The translations under genes and the position numbers were made by a program. Under the pieces are notes generated by a model. That model searched no databases, had not been told where the DNA came from, and saw only the letters and a program-made list of their open reading frames with translations. From a bacterium (GTDB lineage Bacteria; SZUA-79; Acidulodesulfobacterales; Acidulodesulfobacteraceae): a stretch of DNA of 58,916 nucleotides. Position 1 is the first letter of the stretch, and each line of letters begins with the position of its first letter. The stretch is taken from positions 1 to 58,916 of the forward strand of contig JAJYQS010000013.1 in assembly GCA_021794475.1 (NCBI GenBank), written 5' to 3'. This document shows positions 5,012-22,351 of the stretch, piece after piece.

Positions 5012-5764
5012 ATGAAATTATACAAAGGTAAAATATCTATACTCATGCCCGCCTACAATGAAGGTGGAAAAATATATCAAAATTTAATTTATTCTTATAA
5101 AATATTTAAAAAATTTAGATTTCCGTTTGAAATTATTTTAATAGATGACGGAAGTTCAGACAATACTAAAGATATGGTTCTCAAAGCTTCAAAAGAACAT
5201 AATGAAATAAAATTAGTTTCAAATCCAAAAAATATTGGCAAGGGTTTTGCGTTAAAGAACGGTTTTGATAATTCCACAGGTGATTTAATTGTGTTTTTAG
5301 ACAGCGATCTCGAAATAAACCCTTTTCAAGTCGGGAAATTGCTTAAAACAATGAGAGATCAAAACGCTGATGTAGTGGTAGGTTCAAAAAGGCATAAAGA
5401 TTCAAATGTAAAATATACTTTTCAAAGAAAAATATTAAGTTTCGGATACTATCTGATGATTAAATTTCTATTTAATCTTAATTTAACAGACACGCAAGCC
5501 GGCATAAAAGTATTTCAAAGAAAGGTTTTAGAAGATATTTTTCCTAAAGTATTATGTAAAAAATACGCTTTTGATGTGGAAATTCTTGCAGCAGCGGCTC
5601 AAAAAGGATTTAAAATCGTTGAAGAACCGATTGATGTTATTTTCTCGCGAAATACTGCTTGGGGAAGGATCAAAATTAAAGATATAATAGATGTCGGTTT
5701 GGATACTGTTGCTATTTTTTATCGTATGAGAATTTTACGCTACTATACATATAACAAAAAATAG
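5012..5764 (+). CDS. GT2 glycosyltransferase, dolichyl/polyprenyl-phosphate mannosyltransferase-like
   Basis: A GT-A-fold transferase likely to load a sugar onto polyprenyl phosphate at the inner face of the membrane. The 250 residues begin with the nucleotide-binding strand ISILMPAYNEGG, then IDDGSSDNT, the DxD-type FLDSDLEI (metal and nucleotide-sugar binding) and VVGSKRH. The later TDTQAGIKVFQRKVL and FDVEILAAAAQKG are typical of the DPM1-like branch. No membrane anchor follows the catalytic domain. It is the first gene of the island, and a promoter and mini-frame lie directly upstream. The sugar and acceptor cannot be read from the sequence. Confidence 0.88.
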   Translation: MKLYKGKISILMPAYNEGGKIYQNLIYSYKIFKKFRFPFEIILIDDGSSDNTKDMVLKASKEHNEIKLVSNPKNIGKGFALKNGFDNSTGDLIVFLDSDLEINPFQVGKLLKTMRDQNADVVVGSKRHKDSNVKYTFQRKILSFGYYLMIKFLFNLNLTDTQAGIKVFQRKVLEDIFPKVLCKKYAFDVEILAAAAQKGFKIVEEPIDVIFSRNTAWGRIKIKDIIDVGLDTVAIFYRMRILRYYTYNKK

Positions 5765-5978: not shown

Positions 5979-7289
5979 ATGAAAAATATATTAAACGACA
6001 GTTTATTCAAAAATGGAATTTATATCTTCATCTTTTCCATGTCGGCTAATTTTTTCAATTACCTCTTTCAAATCGCAATGGGTCGTTTATTAACGGTATC
6101 TGAATACGGCATATTAAATTCATTATTTTCCATCCTTTTGATAATTTCGGTTCCCGCAGGCACCATAACTATAATAGCCGCAAAAAATATATCTCATAAC
6201 CTGGCAATTTCTAAATTCAATGAAGTTAAGAAATTTATTAAAAACATATTCTTCAAGGTTCTTCTTTTTGGAATGTTCGTTCTTATCGTTTATTTTATTT
6301 TTGTCCCGTATTTAATGGATTTCATGAAGATAAATGTTTTTTTATATTATGCTATATTAGGCGTTGTGTTGTTGATAAGTTTTTTTTTCTCATTGCTAAT
6401 GGGCATACTTCAGGGAGCAAAAATGTACGGCATCTACGGAGTGACGGGAGGTCTGTCATCCGCCGCCAAATTTGTTATCGCCGTTGTTTTAGTATTATTG
6501 GGTTTGAATATAGCGGGTGCTCTTCTTTCAACTTTTATAGCGCAGATTGCCGTTTCATTAATAGCCGTTATATTTATATATAGTTATTTTAAAAAAATCG
6601 GCTCAAAACAGGTTCTCGATGAAAATAACGACGATGTTTCAAATAATGTTCTAACGATTAAATATTTCTTGCTTGTGCTTTTTTCCTTGTTTTTTTACAC
6701 TTTTTTTACAAATATCGATTTAATTATGGTAAAGCATTTTTTCCCATCAAAAGAAGCCGGCATTTACGCAGTAAGCGCTTTACTCGGAAAAATTATATTA
6801 TACCTGCCTGCCAGTTTCGCGGTCGTAATGTTTCCCGAAGTTTCTCACGCGCACGCTTTAAATAATAAAACTAAAAGGATTTTATTTAAAACTATTCTTA
6901 TCACGGCTTTATTGTGCCTTTTTGGTGAAATTTTCTATATACTTTTTCCTGATTTTATAATATCTGTTCTAATGGGAACTAAATATTTAAAAGCCTCTCC
7001 TTTATTAAGTTTATATGGATTCAGTATGTTTTCTTTTGCTATTTTAAGTATAATGGTTAATTATTATATGGCTGTACAGAAATATTTACTTGTATTTTTA
7101 ATGTTCTTTTTTGCAATATTTGAGGTTGTTTTGATAAGCTTGTTTCATCAGACAATGGTTTCGGTTATATTTTGCGTAATGGCAACGGGATATTCGCTTG
7201 CATTTATATCATTAATAAATATTTTTTATATTGATATACTTATTCTTATAAAAAGGATATTTCAATTGCCTGTTCCAAAAAAAATATAA
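5979..7289 (+). CDS. Wzx-like oligosaccharide flippase (MOP superfamily)
   Basis: Polytopic inner-membrane protein of 436 residues with about 12-14 hydrophobic segments spread over its length. It starts with the typical NGIYIFIFSMSANFFNYLFQIAMGRLLTVSEYG region of polysaccharide flippases, and a second half at about 225 resembles the first. Such proteins move undecaprenyl-linked oligosaccharides across the inner membrane. Its place among glycosyltransferases supports that role, and the charged NENNDDVSNN loop at about 210-220 probably links the two halves. No O-antigen polymerase was recognised nearby with confidence, although the DUF2079 or GT-C-like proteins of the island are candidates for later steps. 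Confidence 0.85.
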   Translation: MKNILNDSLFKNGIYIFIFSMSANFFNYLFQIAMGRLLTVSEYGILNSLFSILLIISVPAGTITIIAAKNISHNLAISKFNEVKKFIKNIFFKVLLFGMFVLIVYFIFVPYLMDFMKINVFLYYAILGVVLLISFFFSLLMGILQGAKMYGIYGVTGGLSSAAKFVIAVVLVLLGLNIAGALLSTFIAQIAVSLIAVIFIYSYFKKIGSKQVLDENNDDVSNNVLTIKYFLLVLFSLFFYTFFTNIDLIMVKHFFPSKEAGIYAVSALLGKIILYLPASFAVVMFPEVSHAHALNNKTKRILFKTILITALLCLFGEIFYILFPDFIISVLMGTKYLKASPLLSLYGFSMFSFAILSIMVNYYMAVQKYLLVFLMFFFAIFEVVLISLFHQTMVSVIFCVMATGYSLAFISLINIFYIDILILIKRIFQLPVPKKI

Positions 7290-7321: not shown

Positions 7322-8380
7322 ATGAATACTTTCAGCAGTAAAAAAACTTATATCAATAATAAAAATAATATTGGCGGATCGCCTGCATCGCCGTTTAACG
7401 ATTACAATTATTTTGTATCAATATTAATACCGTTATCTGATATGAACGATTATCTTTTGGAAACTTTAGACCATATATTTAAAATGGATTTTAAGAATTT
7501 TGAGGTTATTATTTTGCCCGACGATAAACTTGAGCTTAATTATCCAAACACAACTATAATACCGACCGGAAAAGTTAGTCCTGCAAAAAAGAGAGATATA
7601 GGCGCCGGGTATTCTAAGGGCGATATCCTGGCATTTATTGACGATGACGCATATCCCGATAAAATGTGGCTTACAAATGCCCTGCCATTTTTTAATGATG
7701 AAAATGTCGGAGCCGTTGGAGGTCCTGCTGTAACACCGGATGGCGACGGTTTTTGGCAGAAAGTCTCCGGAGCTGTATTCCTTACTAAATTAGGCGGCGG
7801 CAACCCTGAAAGATATTTATCCATAGGCAAGGTTAAAGAAATTGACGACTGGCCAAGCGTCAATCTGCTGATTAAAAAAGATTTATTTGACAAAATAAAC
7901 GGATTTGATTCAGAATATTGGCCCGGTGAGGATACTAAATTATGTTTAGACGTTATTAACGGCGGAAAAAAAATTATATACGCTCCGGACGTTCTTGTCT
8001 ATCATCACAGAAGACCCGGTCTTATAAAACACCTTAGACAAATTGGCAGCTACGGTCTGCATAGAGGATATTTTGCAAAAAGGTACCCTAAAAATTCTTT
8101 TAAGCTTTATTATTTTTTCCCTACATTTTTAGTTTTATATTTTATTTTGTTTTTATTCCTTGCAATTATCAATAAAAAGTTATTATTGCCTTTTTCAATT
8201 GGTTTGTTAATATATATATTAGCTTTATGCTTCGCTTTTTTTGATATTTACAAAAAAGTCAAAAATTTAAGAATTTCATTTGTTTCTATTTATTACATTT
8301 TTTTAACGCATATCTGGTACGGTATAAAGTTTTTTTACGGTTTTTTTATTTTAAAGAATTTAAAGAGCAAATTAAGATAA
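7322..8380 (+). CDS. GT2 glycosyltransferase with C-terminal membrane segments
   Basis: A cytoplasmic GT-A domain anchored in the inner membrane. After a polar N-terminus of about 30 residues come the nucleotide-binding strand FVSILIPLSDMNDYLLE, the acidic metal-binding motif AFIDDDAYPDKMWL, AVGGPAVTP, and the acceptor-side motif FWPGEDTKLCLD-like EYWPGEDTKLC. The last 90 residues hold two to three hydrophobic helices separated by short basic loops, ending at about 340. The gene starts 32 nt after the flippase stop, so the two are probably co-transcribed. Donor and acceptor are unknown. Confidence 0.85.
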   Translation: MNTFSSKKTYINNKNNIGGSPASPFNDYNYFVSILIPLSDMNDYLLETLDHIFKMDFKNFEVIILPDDKLELNYPNTTIIPTGKVSPAKKRDIGAGYSKGDILAFIDDDAYPDKMWLTNALPFFNDENVGAVGGPAVTPDGDGFWQKVSGAVFLTKLGGGNPERYLSIGKVKEIDDWPSVNLLIKKDLFDKINGFDSEYWPGEDTKLCLDVINGGKKIIYAPDVLVYHHRRPGLIKHLRQIGSYGLHRGYFAKRYPKNSFKLYYFFPTFLVLYFILFLFLAIINKKLLLPFSIGLLIYILALCFAFFDIYKKVKNLRISFVSIYYIFLTHIWYGIKFFYGFFILKNLKSKLR

Positions 8381-10976: not shown

Positions 10977-11043
10977 TTGCGGCAGGAACAATACTGGATT
11001 AAACGCAGTATCTTAGATAATATTAATTAGCGAGAAATATGAA

Positions 11044-11945
11044 ATGAAAAAGAGTATATATAAAAAAATAGAAGAAAGACTGATATCGCTTGTTGCCAAA
11101 AATAGACGTACATATAAAATTGCAAGATTTTTTGGTATCCCAATGCAGAAATTTTTCATTTTTCCAAAATATTTTATAATAAAAAATATTTTATAATATT
11201 TATAATAAAGGATTTTAATTATGAATTAAAAATACTAACCATTAAAAAAACAGACGAAAGTTTTTATGTTAGAAAAAATAATTTTTTTAATGATATTCTG
11301 GATATTTATGAAATCTTTATTAATAAAGAATATGAGACAGGCTTTTTCAATTATTATGATGGAATTATAGGGGAGGGGGAGTTAATTATTGATATTGGTG
11401 CATTTATTGGCGACACAGCTGTATTTTTTGGTAGAAAAGGTGCTGTAGTTTATGCTTATGAACCCTCTAAGGAACTTTATGAAACAGCCAAAAAAAATAT
11501 TGAGCTAAATAACATTAACGCAAAGATTTTCAATGTGGGCATAGGCAATAAGAATACTAATGTTAAGATGACCCACAATCAAAAAGATATAGCTGACGCA
11601 GGAAGTTTTGTTATATTCGATAAATTTGAGTCTATAGAGAAAACTCATAAAGATAGATTTCTATTCACCGAAGAAATAAAACTTATTTCTTTAGATGAAG
11701 TTTTAGAACAGTTTGAATCGGTTTATTTATTAAAAATGGATTGCGAAGGATGCGAGTTTCCGGCAATTTCCTCTGTAAAAGATGAAAATTTGCAAAAAAT
11801 AAAATATATCATAATGGAACTTCATTTTATAAATGTATTTGACCCTGGTGTTATAGCTTCTAAACTGGAAGCTAATAATTTTGAAGTCTTTTTTGATAAT
11901 AAAAATGGTATTTATGGTATGCTATACGCTAAAAATTTATCTTAA
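11044..11945 (+). pseudogene. FkbM-type methyltransferase gene interrupted by a 17-bp duplication
   Basis: Two reading frames together make one FkbM-family SAM-dependent methyltransferase. The first runs from ATG 11044 to TAA near 11188 (residues ending FPKYFIIKNIL). The second is open from before 11163 to the stop at 11945, holding SAM motif I (IDIGAFIGDTAVFF), AYEPSKELY, and the FkbM-like MDCEGCEFPAISSV. Between them, 16 bases at 11166-11181 recur at 11183-11198, a 17-bp period. Deleting one period joins the frames exactly, reading FPKYFIIFIIKDFNYELK. A shorter C-terminal product from GTG 11535 (136 residues) would lack motif I. The gene may be dead, or be switched by slippage. Confidence 0.85.
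11166..11198 (+). repeat. 17-bp-period tandem duplication causing a frameshift
   Basis: Positions 11166-11181 and 11183-11198 are identical over 16 bases (AAAATATTTTATAATA). Because 17 is not a multiple of three, the extra unit throws the methyltransferase reading frame out of phase and brings a TAA into frame. Confidence 0.9.
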
Positions 11946-14901: not shown

Positions 14902-17610
14902 ATGTTGAAATTTAAAAATAAAATTATAGAAAAAATAAATTATCACAAATTCCCTATAATTATTTTCATTGTATTATCTTTTGTCCCTTTTTTATGGTTA
15001 TACAATAAAAATGGGACATTTTTAGGGATGGGTGATTTTGGGCTACTTTTTGTGTTTTATCATACTAATTATTTATTAAAAATAGCCCCCTATTTAATTA
15101 CTTCAGATAGTGCTATACCTGTTTTTAATGTGATATATTACCCATTTGCTGCAATATTTTCTTTTATTTTTTATATTTTGGGCAGTAATTATCAAAACTC
15201 TCAAATATTATTTTTTAGTTTAATTTTATTTATTGCAATATTTTATTTTTATTTATTTAGTCTAGCAGTTTTTGAAATGCTTGATTTTATTCCTAATAAA
15301 AAAGCTGCATCAATTTCAGCTATTTTTTATATCTTTAATTTTTTTATATTAATATTTTTTATATTTATACCATGGGCTATTTATTTACTGCCTATTGTTA
15401 GTATTATTCTTTATTATTCCATTGAAGCAGTAAAAAAACAAAAAATATCTTTAATATTATTAATTTCGTTATTTTTTTCATTATTTATAATTAATTTAGA
15501 TCTTGTTCAATATTACTATCAATTAATTTTTTTAACTTTATTTTTTATTTTTTATTATTTACTTAATAAAGAAAACATATTTGATTACTTAAACAAAAAT
15601 TTAAAATTTTTATTAAAAACATTTTTTATAATTATATTTATAAATATATGGTGGCTATTACCATTTCTTAACTATTCTCTGGGAACATATTTGCATATCA
15701 AAAAAAGTGCGGTTAGTTTTAGACATGCATACACAGCTTTGGCTTCATTTTCACACATAACTAATATATTAAGTTATTTAAGAAATGTAGGATATAGACC
15801 ATCGTTTTTCTGGTTTTTTAAGCAACGACATTATGGATGGGATAAGATTTATTATTCAACATTCTTTATTTTTTTGGGATTCTTAATTACTTTTATAATA
15901 TTAATCCCAATAATTAAAAATCCCAAAAAATTCTTTATAATTTTAATGCTTTATTTGACAAGTATTTATTTTGCGACGGGATACAATAACCCTTTTAAAA
16001 ATTTAAAATTATGGATATTGCAACATATACCATTTTCATTTATGTATTTTAGCGGCAATGTATTTCTAATTTACATCATTGTATCCGCATCTATTTTATT
16101 CGGTGCAGGTATAACTATAATATATGAATTTATTAAACTTAAATCAGGAAAGAAATTAAGTATAATTATTTTATCTATTATTATGTTAACTACTTGTATA
16201 ATATATGCTTTCCCTATGTTTTCTTATAATATATTTAATGGATATTATAATATGGAGGGCAAAAGAAGTTATTTGATAAAAATCCCATCTTATTATGCCC
16301 AATCAAAAAATTATATTCATAAATATAAAATAAATTCTAATATATTATCATTACCACTTGTTAGTCTTACCTTTTTTTATAAATGGCACCATGGGTACGA
16401 AGGTGCAGTTTACGATGACCTGCTTTTTAGCCATAGCGTAATTATCGCGAATTATTCTATTCAAGGCGATCTGCTTCGATATATACAAGATTACAATTAT
16501 TCTAAAATGTCACATATTTTAGGTATGTTTTCAGTAAAGCATATAGTACTTCAAAATGATATAATATTACCTAAAAGTAATTATATCGCTCTTAATTTTT
16601 ATAGCTCTTATATGAAATATTTATCAAAACCAGAATTAAAATCCATTTTAAACGCCTCAAAAGGCCTAAAATTAGCAAGAAAATTCGGTAAACTTGACAT
16701 ATATAAGCTATCCGATAAATATTTCATGTTCAAAGTATGGACGCCTAAAAGAGTAATATTTGTAAATCATGAGTTAAAATTGCATGATTTAGATAACTAT
16801 ATGATGCCGATTATAATGCAAAATAGCTTTAAAGTCAGAACGGCAGTATTTGCAAGGTTATTTTCTCCAAACAGGCACTCGGAAAGAATAAAAAACTATG
16901 AATTAAATAATATTGCAGACAAATATTCAAAACAATATTCATTAACCAATAAAATATTGGATATTCCCGTTTCTGATAAAATATTAAAAATATCCGAAAC
17001 AGTTAAAAAAATTAATGCGCCTGCTGTTGAATTTAAAGAAATTAACCCTTCAAAATACGCGGTTATAGTGCATAATGCAAAAGCAAGCTTTCCTCTTATC
17101 TTTAATCTAATGTATTTAGCAGGCTGGAATGTTTACCCTCAGATTTATCCTAAAAGAACGGAGGTTAATCGTTCTGAAAATAATTATAATCATAATAATA
17201 ATGCAGGCGATATATCAAAGCAGACTAATGCCGATGCACATAAAAACATAACATTCACGGGTAATAAATTTATTTCCAAAGACATAAACGGAACCGTGCA
17301 GAATAACAATATCCCTGACGGACATATCCTGCAGACTTTGTTTGAAAAACCACTGCCCGCTAAATATCACTTTGTGGCTGACGGTTATTCAAACTCATGG
17401 TGGATTAATCTTAACTATATTAAAAAATTAGGACCGCAGTATTATAAAGTCAACAAAAACGGAACGGTTGATTTTGAACTGATAATTGATTACTGGCCTC
17501 AGAGATTGCTGTATATCGGTTTGATTATTTCCGGTTCATCGCTGTTTATTATAATAGCTTTTCTGATTTATGATGCCGTAAAAAAAAGAAAAAATAAAAA
17601 AAGCGAGTAA
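14902..17610 (+). CDS. Large polytopic membrane protein, probable GT-C-type glycosyltransferase
   Basis: I do not recognise a precise family. The first 430 or so residues of 902 contain about 11-12 hydrophobic helices. An early loop, FLGMGDFGLLF (about 36-46), carries an acidic residue where GT-C enzymes have their catalytic Asp. A periplasmic-type region of about 430 residues follows, with an Asn/His-rich insert at about 755-800 (NNYNHNNNAGD). A final helix (about 870-892) ends in a basic cytoplasmic tail. The layout resembles YfhO-like and AftD-like (DUF3367) proteins that use polyprenyl-phosphate sugars outside the membrane. The DPM1-like gene at 5012 could supply that donor. Base composition becomes less A/T-rich after about 17000, as if the gene were mosaic. 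Confidence 0.6.
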   Translation: MLKFKNKIIEKINYHKFPIIIFIVLSFVPFLWLYNKNGTFLGMGDFGLLFVFYHTNYLLKIAPYLITSDSAIPVFNVIYYPFAAIFSFIFYILGSNYQNSQILFFSLILFIAIFYFYLFSLAVFEMLDFIPNKKAASISAIFYIFNFFILIFFIFIPWAIYLLPIVSIILYYSIEAVKKQKISLILLISLFFSLFIINLDLVQYYYQLIFLTLFFIFYYLLNKENIFDYLNKNLKFLLKTFFIIIFINIWWLLPFLNYSLGTYLHIKKSAVSFRHAYTALASFSHITNILSYLRNVGYRPSFFWFFKQRHYGWDKIYYSTFFIFLGFLITFIILIPIIKNPKKFFIILMLYLTSIYFATGYNNPFKNLKLWILQHIPFSFMYFSGNVFLIYIIVSASILFGAGITIIYEFIKLKSGKKLSIIILSIIMLTTCIIYAFPMFSYNIFNGYYNMEGKRSYLIKIPSYYAQSKNYIHKYKINSNILSLPLVSLTFFYKWHHGYEGAVYDDLLFSHSVIIANYSIQGDLLRYIQDYNYSKMSHILGMFSVKHIVLQNDIILPKSNYIALNFYSSYMKYLSKPELKSILNASKGLKLARKFGKLDIYKLSDKYFMFKVWTPKRVIFVNHELKLHDLDNYMMPIIMQNSFKVRTAVFARLFSPNRHSERIKNYELNNIADKYSKQYSLTNKILDIPVSDKILKISETVKKINAPAVEFKEINPSKYAVIVHNAKASFPLIFNLMYLAGWNVYPQIYPKRTEVNRSENNYNHNNNAGDISKQTNADAHKNITFTGNKFISKDINGTVQNNNIPDGHILQTLFEKPLPAKYHFVADGYSNSWWINLNYIKKLGPQYYKVNKNGTVDFELIIDYWPQRLLYIGLIISGSSLFIIIAFLIYDAVKKRKNKKSE

Positions 17611-17612
17611 TT

Positions 17613-20267
17613 ATGGATATAGATAAAAAAATCATTACAGACATAAAGGCGATACTTTCAGCGCTGTTTAAAATGGGTTTAAACTTATGGGAAAATAAGC
17701 TTAAAATCGTTAAATGGCTTGTCATTATTCTTGCCCTGTTCCTTGTTTACAGAGTTTATAAAATTTTAACGGTTCATAAAGCAGTAATTCAAAACCATGT
17801 CGTATCTAAAATAATCCGCATAAAAAAATCCGGTTATTACAAGCTCGCGGTCTATATTAAACCAAAAACGGTTTACTTTCATAAAAGGCAAATACTTGTT
17901 CAAACAAAAGGATTTAAACCGCTTTCGCAACTAACCGTACATCATTATCTGTATGGGTATAAATCTGAAGTTTTACTGAATAAAAAAAACATAGACGGAT
18001 TTAAAAAAGACAGATACCGGCATTTAATATTCAGAGCTAAAATAATGGGAAAAGGAAGCTCTCCTTTCGTTCTATTTTATCTTTCTTTTTCTAATCCTGA
18101 TTTAGCTGGCAGAATCTTATATACCCCGATTAATATTCCCGCAAAAAATATACTTAAAAACTATACTATATTGGGAAAATTCAGAAAAAACGGATACATT
18201 AAACTGACCAAGAACCCCAATAAGAAAAAGCCAAGAGTTCAGATAAATAAATTTTTATACCTTTATCCTCAATTTGCTATAAAAGGCAAAATAAAATATA
18301 TAAAAGCTTATATTGAATACAAAATTAAACATAAAAAATATTTTTCCAAGCATTTTAATCTATCAAACGGCGGTTTAATAAATCTTTACGGCGTACTTAA
18401 AAACAAAAAAATTAAGCGCTGGAGAGACGCTAAAATTGTTAAAATTTATTTTGTCGTAAAAAAATATAAAAAGATAAAAGGTTCCATTAAGATTGCCAAC
18501 TTGGGCTTAATATATCCGAATTATGAGCCTTTAAAAAAGGCATTTAAACAATTCATATACAAAAGATATTTTATAAGTTTCATGAAAAAAAGCAGATTGT
18601 TTCATAAAGTACTTTTAAAAGATATCAGGCAGGCTAAAAAAAGCAACGCATTGGAATTAAAATCTTTTAATTTTGTTTCAAAAAGAATAATAAAACAGGC
18701 TTTAATTCATGATATATTAGATGAAATATTTTCAGTTGATTATAACACTAAGATAAGGCATATTAGTCATATTAAAAATAAAATAGTCAGACATTTTTAC
18801 AGATTTGTATATAAAAAATACTTGACGGAACAAAATTTTTTCAGTCTTTTATTGTCGCATTTCAATAAACCAAAGCATTTTTATAAAAATATTTTAATCC
18901 CCGTAGGCTCAAAAGGGATTAAAATAAAAACAAGGAAAGAATTTAACGGCAATACATCTTATTACAATAAAACAACTTATATATATGTTAATTTTAATAA
19001 AATAAAATTTTATAAATATTGGCCAGCGCATAAACATATTTTAAAGAAAATACTGAAAAACTACATTTACAATAACATTTATGAACGCAATTTACATTTT
19101 CTTAAGGCGAATAATTCGCCCAAACCTTTTAAACCTTTTGTATTAAGGGGCAATAATGAAGATTACTGGCACGGCAAGCATTATTACAGGCACTATCCCA
19201 TATTAAAAAGTTTAAAGGTTTTTGCTTTTGACAAAAAAATAAATAAAATCAACGGATATTTTTATTATAAAAGCCTTCCCTTTAAATATCCAAAATTTTT
19301 AAGTTTTTCAAAAAATGTACACTTAAATAACGAAAATAAAATAAATTTTTTAAATCTGATTTCAAATAAATTTACTTATAAAAATCAGTTAAAACTTATA
19401 AATTCTTTTAATTTAAATCCTGCAGTTTTTTTAAAGAAGCCGTTTTTTACTTCAATAACCTTAACAAAAAAAAGCATAATTAATACCATAAATAAAAACG
19501 TAAGCTTTGAGCGTATCGGTTCTGGTCATGTCAATGGATTATTTTACCCCGTTATGAGTAAAACAGGTTTCAATATAAGAAGGTTTGTTCTGAAATTCAT
19601 GAATATAACCTTTATCAACCTTCGTTACGGCTTAATAAAATTTCATATTAACGGGACATATAATGAAAAATTGGCAAAAAATTTTTTAAAGTTAAGATGC
19701 CGTTTGATTAATTTTAATAAGACGAAAAACGTTGAAGTTCCTGTAAAATATTATTTATTGAACGGCAATTTATTTTTTGCGCTTAACTTAAAACATATTA
19801 ATTTAAAAAATGTCAATGAAATTATCATCAGTTTCAAACAAAAAGAAATGGTTGTTTATTATAAATATAATTTTAGAATAAATAAAAATATTTATTTTAT
19901 TCATTATGCAAAATCGCGTATGCCCTCACTAGATAATATTATAAAAAACGACCCTTTGTTTAAGTTAAATAACAACAAAATATTCTTAAATAATTTTAAA
20001 CTCTCGTTTAAAAGATTTAACAAAATTTTTAAAAACGGCGGCAGTTTTATTTCGCAAAAAATTTACCTTAAAAAAGGTAATTATAATATTGAGAAAGTAT
20101 TAAACGAAATCTTTAAAATCCAAATACTTTCTTTGCAAAAAATTAAAAACAACAGAATTAAAAACAACAACATTAAAAATGCAAAATTAGATTTAAATAA
20201 AACCAATAAAGCTAAACCGGCAAAGAAAATTATAACAAATAAAATTAAAGAAAAAAGAACATTATAA
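17613..20267 (+). CDS. Unknown, strongly basic single-pass envelope protein (884 aa)
   Basis: No family was recognised. The N-terminus has about 33 polar residues and one membrane helix at about 34-50 (KWLVIILALFLVYRVYKI), after which some 830 residues are presumably periplasmic. That part is extraordinarily rich in Lys, Asn, Ile, Phe and Tyr and poor in acidic residues. Phrases such as KIKHKKYFSKHF and KNKKIKRWRDAK recur, while the regular strand-like pattern argues against simple disorder. The last 60 residues are low-complexity Lys/Asn. It starts two bases after the GT-C-like gene and ends four bases before a small membrane protein, so the three should act together. A role in binding anionic glycan, or as a scaffold in an acidic periplasm, is speculation. 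Confidence 0.55.
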   Translation: MDIDKKIITDIKAILSALFKMGLNLWENKLKIVKWLVIILALFLVYRVYKILTVHKAVIQNHVVSKIIRIKKSGYYKLAVYIKPKTVYFHKRQILVQTKGFKPLSQLTVHHYLYGYKSEVLLNKKNIDGFKKDRYRHLIFRAKIMGKGSSPFVLFYLSFSNPDLAGRILYTPINIPAKNILKNYTILGKFRKNGYIKLTKNPNKKKPRVQINKFLYLYPQFAIKGKIKYIKAYIEYKIKHKKYFSKHFNLSNGGLINLYGVLKNKKIKRWRDAKIVKIYFVVKKYKKIKGSIKIANLGLIYPNYEPLKKAFKQFIYKRYFISFMKKSRLFHKVLLKDIRQAKKSNALELKSFNFVSKRIIKQALIHDILDEIFSVDYNTKIRHISHIKNKIVRHFYRFVYKKYLTEQNFFSLLLSHFNKPKHFYKNILIPVGSKGIKIKTRKEFNGNTSYYNKTTYIYVNFNKIKFYKYWPAHKHILKKILKNYIYNNIYERNLHFLKANNSPKPFKPFVLRGNNEDYWHGKHYYRHYPILKSLKVFAFDKKINKINGYFYYKSLPFKYPKFLSFSKNVHLNNENKINFLNLISNKFTYKNQLKLINSFNLNPAVFLKKPFFTSITLTKKSIINTINKNVSFERIGSGHVNGLFYPVMSKTGFNIRRFVLKFMNITFINLRYGLIKFHINGTYNEKLAKNFLKLRCRLINFNKTKNVEVPVKYYLLNGNLFFALNLKHINLKNVNEIIISFKQKEMVVYYKYNFRINKNIYFIHYAKSRMPSLDNIIKNDPLFKLNNNKIFLNNFKLSFKRFNKIFKNGGSFISQKIYLKKGNYNIEKVLNEIFKIQILSLQKIKNNRIKNNNIKNAKLDLNKTNKAKPAKKIITNKIKEKRTL

Positions 20268-20270
20268 AAA

Positions 20271-20666
20271 ATGAGAAATATATTTAACAATATAGTCTTT
20301 GTTGCGATTCATGTTATAAGTTTTATATTCGCAATAGATTTGATATTCAGGATTGCCCATGGTAAAGTAGGTTTCGGTTTTCAATGGCTTGGGTTGATTA
20401 TTGTTATTCTATACGGGTTATGGGTGCGCTATATATTAAGAGAAAAATATTTTAGTAAAATTGAATTTTTCAAAACAAGGCTGTCCGCTCCGTATTCTTT
20501 GGGGGCGGTTTTCATGCTTTTCATAGCTATGATTATTGATTTAGCGGGAAACGAAAGACTTGCCAACGGTTTTGCGATTATTTGTTTTTATTTTTTAATT
20601 GCAACGGTTGTTGTAGAAGGCATAGATTCGCTTAAACAAAGATTTATTCGAAAACAGAAGGGTTAA
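20271..20666 (+). CDS. Small polytopic membrane protein of unknown function
   Basis: A 131-residue protein with four predicted membrane helices (about 5-25, 35-53, 72-90 and 97-117) and basic loops, ending in a positively charged tail. No family motif was recognised. The ATG is four bases after the stop of the basic 884-residue protein, giving strong evidence of co-translation with it. It could be a membrane partner of that protein or of the neighbouring GT-C-like enzyme. Confidence 0.65.
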   Translation: MRNIFNNIVFVAIHVISFIFAIDLIFRIAHGKVGFGFQWLGLIIVILYGLWVRYILREKYFSKIEFFKTRLSAPYSLGAVFMLFIAMIIDLAGNERLANGFAIICFYFLIATVVVEGIDSLKQRFIRKQKG

Positions 20667-20833: not shown

Positions 20834-22351
20834 ATGCCTTTAAAACAAATTAAGCAAAAAATTAAAGAAATATTAAAAGACAATTATACGCCTTTAGTTT
20901 TTTGTATAATTTACACCGCTATATTTTCTGCAGCTACAATCTTAAGATACGAGACATTTCATTCCTCTTTCATGGATCTTGGAGTAGAAATGCAAGCTAT
21001 TTATGATATTGCCAATGGCCATTTTACTTATTACAAATCCAATATTATTATTGGAAGCAGCTATATTGAACCTTTTTATTTTATTATGGGTTTATTGTAT
21101 AAGCTTGCGCCCCATGTTTCTTTTTTCTTAATACTTCAATCATTTGCGATAGGTATTAGCGGATTTCCTTTTTACTGGATATATAAAAAATTAATTGGCA
21201 ACAATGGCGCTTATATTGCTCCGCTATTATTGCTTCTAAACCCTCAAATACATACAGGAAATATGTTTGATTTTCATATTTCTATGTTCTATGTTCCTTT
21301 TATATCATTTGCATTATATTTTGCAATGAGTAGAAAATATTTTTTATTATATTTATTTTCTTTTCTAATTCTATTTACAAAAATAGATTCTTTTATTTAT
21401 CTATCGGCAATTTGCCTTTATATGATATTAATTGATTATAAAAATAAACATAATTATATTTTGCTTGCCATTTCAATTGTTTATGGTTTATCTGGTATTT
21501 TTATTGTATTGCCGCTAATAAATCATACTGCGTATAACCTGATTTTCGGCAATGGAACGTCTGATTTTGGTCCTTTAAGATATCCTGTTTTAAGTTACGG
21601 AATAAAAGATTTATTAAATTTAAATATTTTAGGATTTTTAAAAACATTATTTGTACCTTTTTCGCAAAATATCTATATATATTTTAAATTTATCTTATAT
21701 TTTTTAATAGCTTTATTGTTTTTGCCGCTTTTTTCTGGAAAATATTTATTAATCGTTATCCCTTCATTTTTGGTAAACTACTTAGTAAATTACCCGTTTC
21801 AATCAATGATAATGCTCCAATATGTATATTACATGATTCCATTTTTTGTCTTAGCAAGTATTTATGGAATAAAAAATATAAAAAGCAAAAGAATGTTTAA
21901 TAAAATTGAAAACAAACCAAATAACAAATATTATTTTAATATTTTATTGTTATTTCTTCTTATAGGTGCCACATTTATAATCCAAAATTATTCCGAAATT
22001 AATCCCGATAAAAATGTCAATATCTTTGATGTTCAAAATTACATCTATTATAAAAAACTTTATGCGGAAGATTATACAAATGCTTTAAAAAAAATACCAA
22101 AAAATGCAACAGTCAGCATAAGCGAATTTGCGTACCCATGGGATTATATGCAAAAACATGTTTATTTATTTCCGCAAGTTGGCAAAAATACACAATATAT
22201 AGTTGTTTCAACTTGCGTTAAGGAGCAATTATATGGCAACAAAGACGAGAAAAGGCTTGAAGTATTAAAACATATTATTAACAAAAAAAAATTTACAATA
22301 ATTTACAATAAAGGATGCAGCGTAATTCTAAAAAAATTATTTAAATCATAA
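20834..22351 (+). CDS. DUF2079 polytopic membrane protein
   Basis: The 505-residue protein fits the DUF2079 family of GT-C-like membrane proteins. After a cytoplasmic N-terminus and first helix comes RYETFHSSFMDLGVEMQAIYD, with the family's Asp-Leu-Gly after the first helix, then about nine more helices. A short extracytoplasmic C-terminus holds the family-like ISEFAYPWDYMQKHVYLFP. Function is not established for the family; a lipid-linked sugar transferase or polymerase is a reasonable guess. It is separated from the preceding gene by 167 bp, in which no promoter was recognised, and closes the glycan island. It is very A/T-rich. Confidence 0.75.
   Translation: MPLKQIKQKIKEILKDNYTPLVFCIIYTAIFSAATILRYETFHSSFMDLGVEMQAIYDIANGHFTYYKSNIIIGSSYIEPFYFIMGLLYKLAPHVSFFLILQSFAIGISGFPFYWIYKKLIGNNGAYIAPLLLLLNPQIHTGNMFDFHISMFYVPFISFALYFAMSRKYFLLYLFSFLILFTKIDSFIYLSAICLYMILIDYKNKHNYILLAISIVYGLSGIFIVLPLINHTAYNLIFGNGTSDFGPLRYPVLSYGIKDLLNLNILGFLKTLFVPFSQNIYIYFKFILYFLIALLFLPLFSGKYLLIVIPSFLVNYLVNYPFQSMIMLQYVYYMIPFFVLASIYGIKNIKSKRMFNKIENKPNNKYYFNILLLFLLIGATFIIQNYSEINPDKNVNIFDVQNYIYYKKLYAEDYTNALKKIPKNATVSISEFAYPWDYMQKHVYLFPQVGKNTQYIVVSTCVKEQLYGNKDEKRLEVLKHIINKKKFTIIYNKGCSVILKKLFKS

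Follow-up and report, generated by a model that had tools for sequence, protein, structure and literature searches.

A phylum-restricted family of basic, membrane-anchored envelope proteins encoded beside GT-C-like proteins in surface-polysaccharide loci

Results

Gene order at the locus

The window analysed here is a stretch of DNA of 58,916 nucleotides. On its forward strand, an ATG-initiated gene encodes an 884-residue envelope protein (884; positions 17613-20267), which was aligned as a family of nine. A gap of 2 nt separates it from the upstream gene for a 902-residue GT-C-like membrane protein (14902-17610, +), placed in the AftD/YfhO superfamily by profile homology. Downstream, after 3 nt, lies the gene for a 131-residue protein with four hydrophobic segments (131; 20271-20666, +). 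A previous sequence-only reading of this DNA had given these spacings as two and four bases; the first figure stands, and the second must be corrected to three. The next gene encodes a 505-residue DUF2079 membrane protein (PF09852, E 4.5e-35; 20834-22351, +). The head of the locus is formed by a GT2 glycosyltransferase resembling polyprenyl-phosphate sugar synthases (5012-5764, +) and a MOP/Wzx-type flippase (PF01943; 5979-7289, +).

The genes for the GT-C-like protein, 884 and 131 form a near-invariant genetic unit. Their co-occurrence, which the sequence-only reading had proposed to check, extends to nine loci from eight genomes. The 131 gene directly follows the 884 gene in all nine. The junction is a gap (3 or 16 nt) in some loci and an overlap (4 or 11 nt) in others. 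A large GT-C-like membrane protein is encoded upstream of 884 in 9/9 loci and directly adjoins it in eight; in the exception (genome G022), it is a 912-residue version, 25% identical, located one gene further upstream. In genomes of the phylum where profile searches found no 884, they found no GT-C-like protein either. In G025, the head genes lie at a contig end, so a cassette may simply be absent from the assembly.

By their layout, the nine loci are surface-polysaccharide loci. All of them start with the same series of genes, namely the GT2, the MOP-type flippase, a second GT2 and a radical SAM protein, followed by a variable middle part in which additional glycosyltransferases are encoded along with methyltransferases and sugar-nucleotide enzymes. 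A DUF2079 homologue is found at one end of every locus. In seven it is the next gene downstream (inverted in G002), and G001 and the C10 locus of G006 have it at the other end, next to the head GT2. The best NCBIfam matches of the head GT2 were PgfS, ArnC and PpgS, the latter two being polyprenyl-phosphate sugar synthases going by their names. All three matches were far under the cut-offs, and the protein is therefore described here only as similar to such synthases.

Two gene models in these loci deserve mention. In the window, an FkbM-type methyltransferase gene at ~11040-11945 is apparently frameshifted, with its start in another frame than the annotated GTG open reading frame at 11535. In the C10 locus of G006, two overlapping open reading frames (L086:5235-6312, - strand) take the place of an intact homologue of the GT2 at 7322.

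The 884-residue protein

The single hydrophobic segment of 884 spans residues 28-55 (17694-17777, +) and represents an N-terminal membrane helix, the N-terminus of the protein being probably cytoplasmic. The protein has a pI of 10.3 and is rich in Lys (17.2%), Ile (11.3%), Asn (10.7%), Phe (7.8%) and Tyr (7.0%), and the part beyond the helix is basic and rich in Lys, Asn and Ile. Both the solitary helix and the dominance of these five residues had been recognised in the sequence-only reading. Compared with its nearest relative, the gene has dN 0.14 and dS 0.73 (dN/dS ~ 0.2). It is a real gene under purifying selection, and more than a product of chance, because nine copies are preserved at 38-75% identity with this dN and dS. 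Selection and conservation together rule out an origin as a low-complexity artefact of AT-rich DNA.

The ectodomain probably lies outside the cytoplasm, judging by its high net charge, its few cysteines and the charge asymmetry around the helix. The flank of the helix is more positive on the N-terminal side in eight of the nine family members. The ectodomains contain 0-4 Cys per ~840 residues and have net charges of +13 to +17.5%; in proteins lacking a membrane helix, Cys averages 1.1% and the median net charge is +1.8%. The window's other single-helix envelope proteins (MreC-like, PBP-like and two lipoproteins) also carry net charges of +7.6 to +12.1%, compared with an average of +1.5% in proteins that lack any membrane helix. 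The 884 family is the extreme of an apparently lineage-wide envelope trait of an acidophile.

A few polar residues are invariant in the ectodomain, among them Arg92, His137, Arg191, Asp376, His383, Arg393, Arg512 and Asp517. There is no invariant Glu, Asp376 and Asp517 are the only invariant Asp, and the invariant positions are mostly aromatic, Lys, Asn or Gly. Residues 186-306 (18168-18530, +) are strand-rich and possibly form a β-sandwich, according to a low-confidence model that the fold search did not confirm. The following residues 305-406 (18525-18830, +) are predicted, also with low confidence, to be helical, and the alignment places the invariant Asp376, His383 and Arg393 here. The C-terminal tail (residues 845-884; 20145-20264, +) is rich in Lys and Asn and is missing or shorter in the relatives. 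Comparison of cut pieces of 884 with one another and with the soluble part of the GT-C-like protein revealed neither internal repeats nor likeness beyond the overlaps of the pieces.

Structure prediction and a fold search had been suggested in the sequence-only reading as a way to place the ectodomain. AlphaFold modelling from four-sequence alignments gave a pLDDT of 37 for the complete protein and 36 for residues 56-310, too low to be usable. In the second model, poor overall, only residues 221-294 exceeded pLDDT 50 (54-73), and this part was strand-rich. A Foldseek search of an 884 fragment against the PDB returned nothing significant (best E 0.57). No fold was obtained for 884.

Homologues and distribution

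The absence of a known domain, already stated from the sequence, persisted in database searches. The 884 sequence had no match at E < 1 in Pfam or NCBIfam, and neither it nor its family profile had a match of note among PDB sequences of solved structures. The nine members had no meaningful match in Pfam, with BcsB and Wzz absent at E < 1. No carbohydrate-binding module (CBM) family matched 884, and no relation of its sequence to any CBM was found.

The profile search for homologues that had been proposed earlier detected nine copies in 8 of the 30 genomes of the phylum to which the window belongs (Ca. Acidulodesulfobacterales and kin). No credible copy was present in 356 more distant genomes. 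Beyond the set of nine, 884 and 131 gave only marginal short matches (E 0.002-0.007), which we regard as chance. No relatives of either protein were detected in the 44 genomes of the phylum of G116, in a search run without a positive control. Viral contigs contained no relatives. A short-pattern scan of 84,980 species genomes gave at least three loci, and those listed apparently come from genomes already in the set; the family may nevertheless occur more widely. One named carrier of the 884 gene is Ca. Acididesulfobacter diazotrophicus, whose lineage inhabits acid mine drainage (PMC6776010). This habitat and the basic nature of the other envelope proteins support the earlier suggestion that the charge of 884 suits an acidic periplasm. 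The range restricted to one phylum, the company of GT2, MOP flippase and DUF2079 genes, and the conflicting trees described below go beyond what had been read from the sequence. Overall, 884 is a new protein family within a known kind of system.

The GT-C-like protein and its conflicting history

In the 902-residue protein, some ten hydrophobic segments are accompanied by a long soluble region and a final helix. It has no Pfam match itself, and its nine relatives had no relevant match at E < 1, PF11847 (GT-C_AftD) included. The family profile, on the other hand, finds large membrane proteins of other phyla (783 to 1430 residues) with E-values down to 1e-50. Among these, proteins from G384 and G116 passed PF11847 with 46.1 and 31.6 bits (cut-off 26), and weaker relatives passed the cut-off of PF09586 (YfhO). 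The earlier description as GT-C-like is therefore supported at the superfamily level. Asp45 in the first outer loop, a candidate for the catalytic base of GT-C enzymes, is Asp in six of the nine proteins and His in three.

One relative, in the distant genome G122 (1430 residues; L065:6096-10388, - strand), contains a large soluble insert, for which no full-length relative except itself was found in 145 genomes. The idea that 884 is a detached CBM block of such a longer GT-C was rejected, as the 884 profile matches the insert no better than it matches shuffled sequences.

The two halves of the GT-C-like protein differ in conservation. Between the window and same-genus relatives, the C-terminal half (residues 571-902; 16612-17610, +) is strongly conserved, with 68-86% identity, whereas the N-terminal membrane half (residues 1-570; 14902-16611, +) is only 40-49% identical and is either fast-diverging or exchanged. 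The N-terminal halves pair G002 with G003 (81%) and the two G006 copies with each other (77%). In the C-half tree, the G006 pair is rejected (AU p 0.004) and the G002/G003 pair is not (p 0.096). The trees of 884 (p below 1e-13) and 131 (p below 0.001) reject both pairs, and they have in common one fully supported split into two groups. Whole GT-C genes, or only their N-terminal halves, thus seem to have changed loci without 884. Rapid divergence of the N-terminal half could not by itself account for the pairings. Given the conflict with the 884 tree, GT-C and 884 are not tightly co-inherited, and such independent movement would mean that 884 is not bound to one GT-C specificity. In the window's GT-C gene and its homologues in L038-L044, the conserved C-terminal half, the divergent N-terminal half and their conflicting trees suggest that the catalytic half was exchanged between loci.

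Discussion

Comparison with known systems

As reported for the GtrABC-type three-component systems (C. youngae O1/O2, with a GT136 GT-C), the GT-C carries a CBM and acts in the periplasm, where it transfers a sugar supplied on a lipid, and the system's flippase belongs to the MATE family (PMC11127046). The nine loci resemble these systems, since all combine a synthase-like GT2, a MOP/MATE-type flippase beside it and a GT-C downstream. They differ in the additional, lineage-specific 884 and 131 and in the DUF2079 protein. The size and helix number of 131 are reminiscent of GtrA (PF04138) four-helix flippases, but it matched nothing in Pfam, the profile comparison by hhalign gave a probability of 0.1, and GtrA was found in none of the 30 phylum genomes in a search that detected its controls. 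We therefore rejected 131 as a GtrA.

The mycobacterial AftD-type arabinofuranosyltransferases (PF11847, with fused CBMs) offer a second comparison, given that homologues of the 902-residue protein pass the PF11847 cut-off. In both cases, a GT-C that acts outside the membrane, as would be expected here, has a large periplasmic part next to the catalytic membrane part. In contrast to AftD, the 902-residue protein itself has no Pfam match, and the glycan-binding module, if 884 is one, would be separately encoded and separately anchored in the membrane, with no CBM kinship found in its sequence. YfhO and DUF2079 are related to the set in another way, as DUF2079 is its fourth gene and weaker relatives of the 902-residue protein are YfhO members, but the 902-residue protein, 884 and 131 match neither family.

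A possible role of 884

We tentatively propose, with somewhat less than even confidence, an accessory role for 884 in the periplasm: anchored in the membrane, it would assist the GT-C in dealing with the acceptor glycan, as a subunit of an extracytoplasmic glycosylation system by which a surface polysaccharide is built or decorated. Judging by family resemblance, the GT2 at 5012 would load a sugar onto polyprenyl phosphate. Bringing this lipid-linked sugar, or a lipid-linked glycan, to the periplasmic face would then fall to the MOP protein at 5979 or, with lower probability, to 131. There, the GT-C at 14902, perhaps together with the DUF2079 protein, may transfer the sugar outside the membrane, as its homology to the AftD/YfhO superfamily suggests. 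The 884 ectodomain could hold or position the growing acceptor, with the N-terminal helix and 131 keeping the ectodomain next to the GT-C. Acceptor glycans are bound by the CBMs of GT-C enzymes both in a described three-component system and in AftD/EmbC (PMC11127046), and 884 might be the in trans counterpart of the CBMs that are fused in cis to AftD and Emb enzymes. The sequence-only reading had likewise imagined a periplasmic glycan-handling complex of the three proteins. This proposal is favoured by the 9/9 conservation of the unit and of the GT2 and MOP head, by the homologues that pass PF11847, by purifying selection, and by the low Cys content and high charge of 884. It is weakened by the lack of a fold and of a CBM match, the unmatched G122 insert, the conflicting N-half tree, the divergence in G022 and the replacement of Asp45 by His in 3/9 proteins.

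Alternatively, 884 could be an export or length-control scaffold, comparable to BcsB or a polysaccharide co-polymerase, which guides or measures the periplasmic polymer and gives no help to the GT-C. Its size, its membrane anchor, its probable periplasmic location and the presence of a MOP flippase in the same polysaccharide locus agree with this. That 884 is inherited with 131 and not strictly with a particular GT-C half would fit such a role. Wzz-type proteins, however, carry helices at both termini, and the anchor of BcsB is C-terminal, whereas 884 has one N-terminal helix; neither family was matched by the nine members, and a GT-C precedes 884 in every locus. We consider this scaffold improbable. 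The positive charge could also mean that 884 binds an anionic polymer, such as an acidic polysaccharide or LPS, and that its main function is that of an acid-stable scaffold at the surface or in the periplasm. Its charge indeed exceeds that of the window's other single-helix envelope proteins, but, since those are also strongly basic, much of it would be a general envelope trait that need not indicate anionic-polymer binding, and the Lys-rich tail is not conserved. We consider a primary role in polymer binding distinctly unlikely. The few invariant polar residues of the ectodomain could alternatively belong to an active site, with 884 itself acting on the glycan as a hydrolase, lyase or transferase. 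With no enzyme family matched, no invariant Glu, just two invariant Asp and mostly aromatic, Lys, Asn or Gly invariant positions, a catalytic 884 seems more doubtful still.

The accessory-subunit proposal has a bolder form, in which 884 and 131 act together as conserved adaptors, through which a single periplasmic glycosylation machine working under extremely acidic conditions can accept interchangeable GT-C catalytic halves. We regard this extension as unlikely; if true, it would define a dedicated, phylum-specific class of subunits for GT-C enzymes, with a fold unseen so far. GT-C enzymes acting outside the membrane are usually described as solitary or with fused binding modules, and an obligate, separate subunit pair would alter that picture for one group. 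To our knowledge, the building and diversification of surface polysaccharides in acid-mine bacteria have been little studied. The nine loci, in which different GT-C halves stand beside the same kinds of 884/131 pair, provide a natural swap set for probing the role of the partners. One genome of the set, G006, carries two complete loci, C10 (L041) and C101 (L042), with different types of 884; either the locus is genuinely duplicated or the assembly combines two strains.
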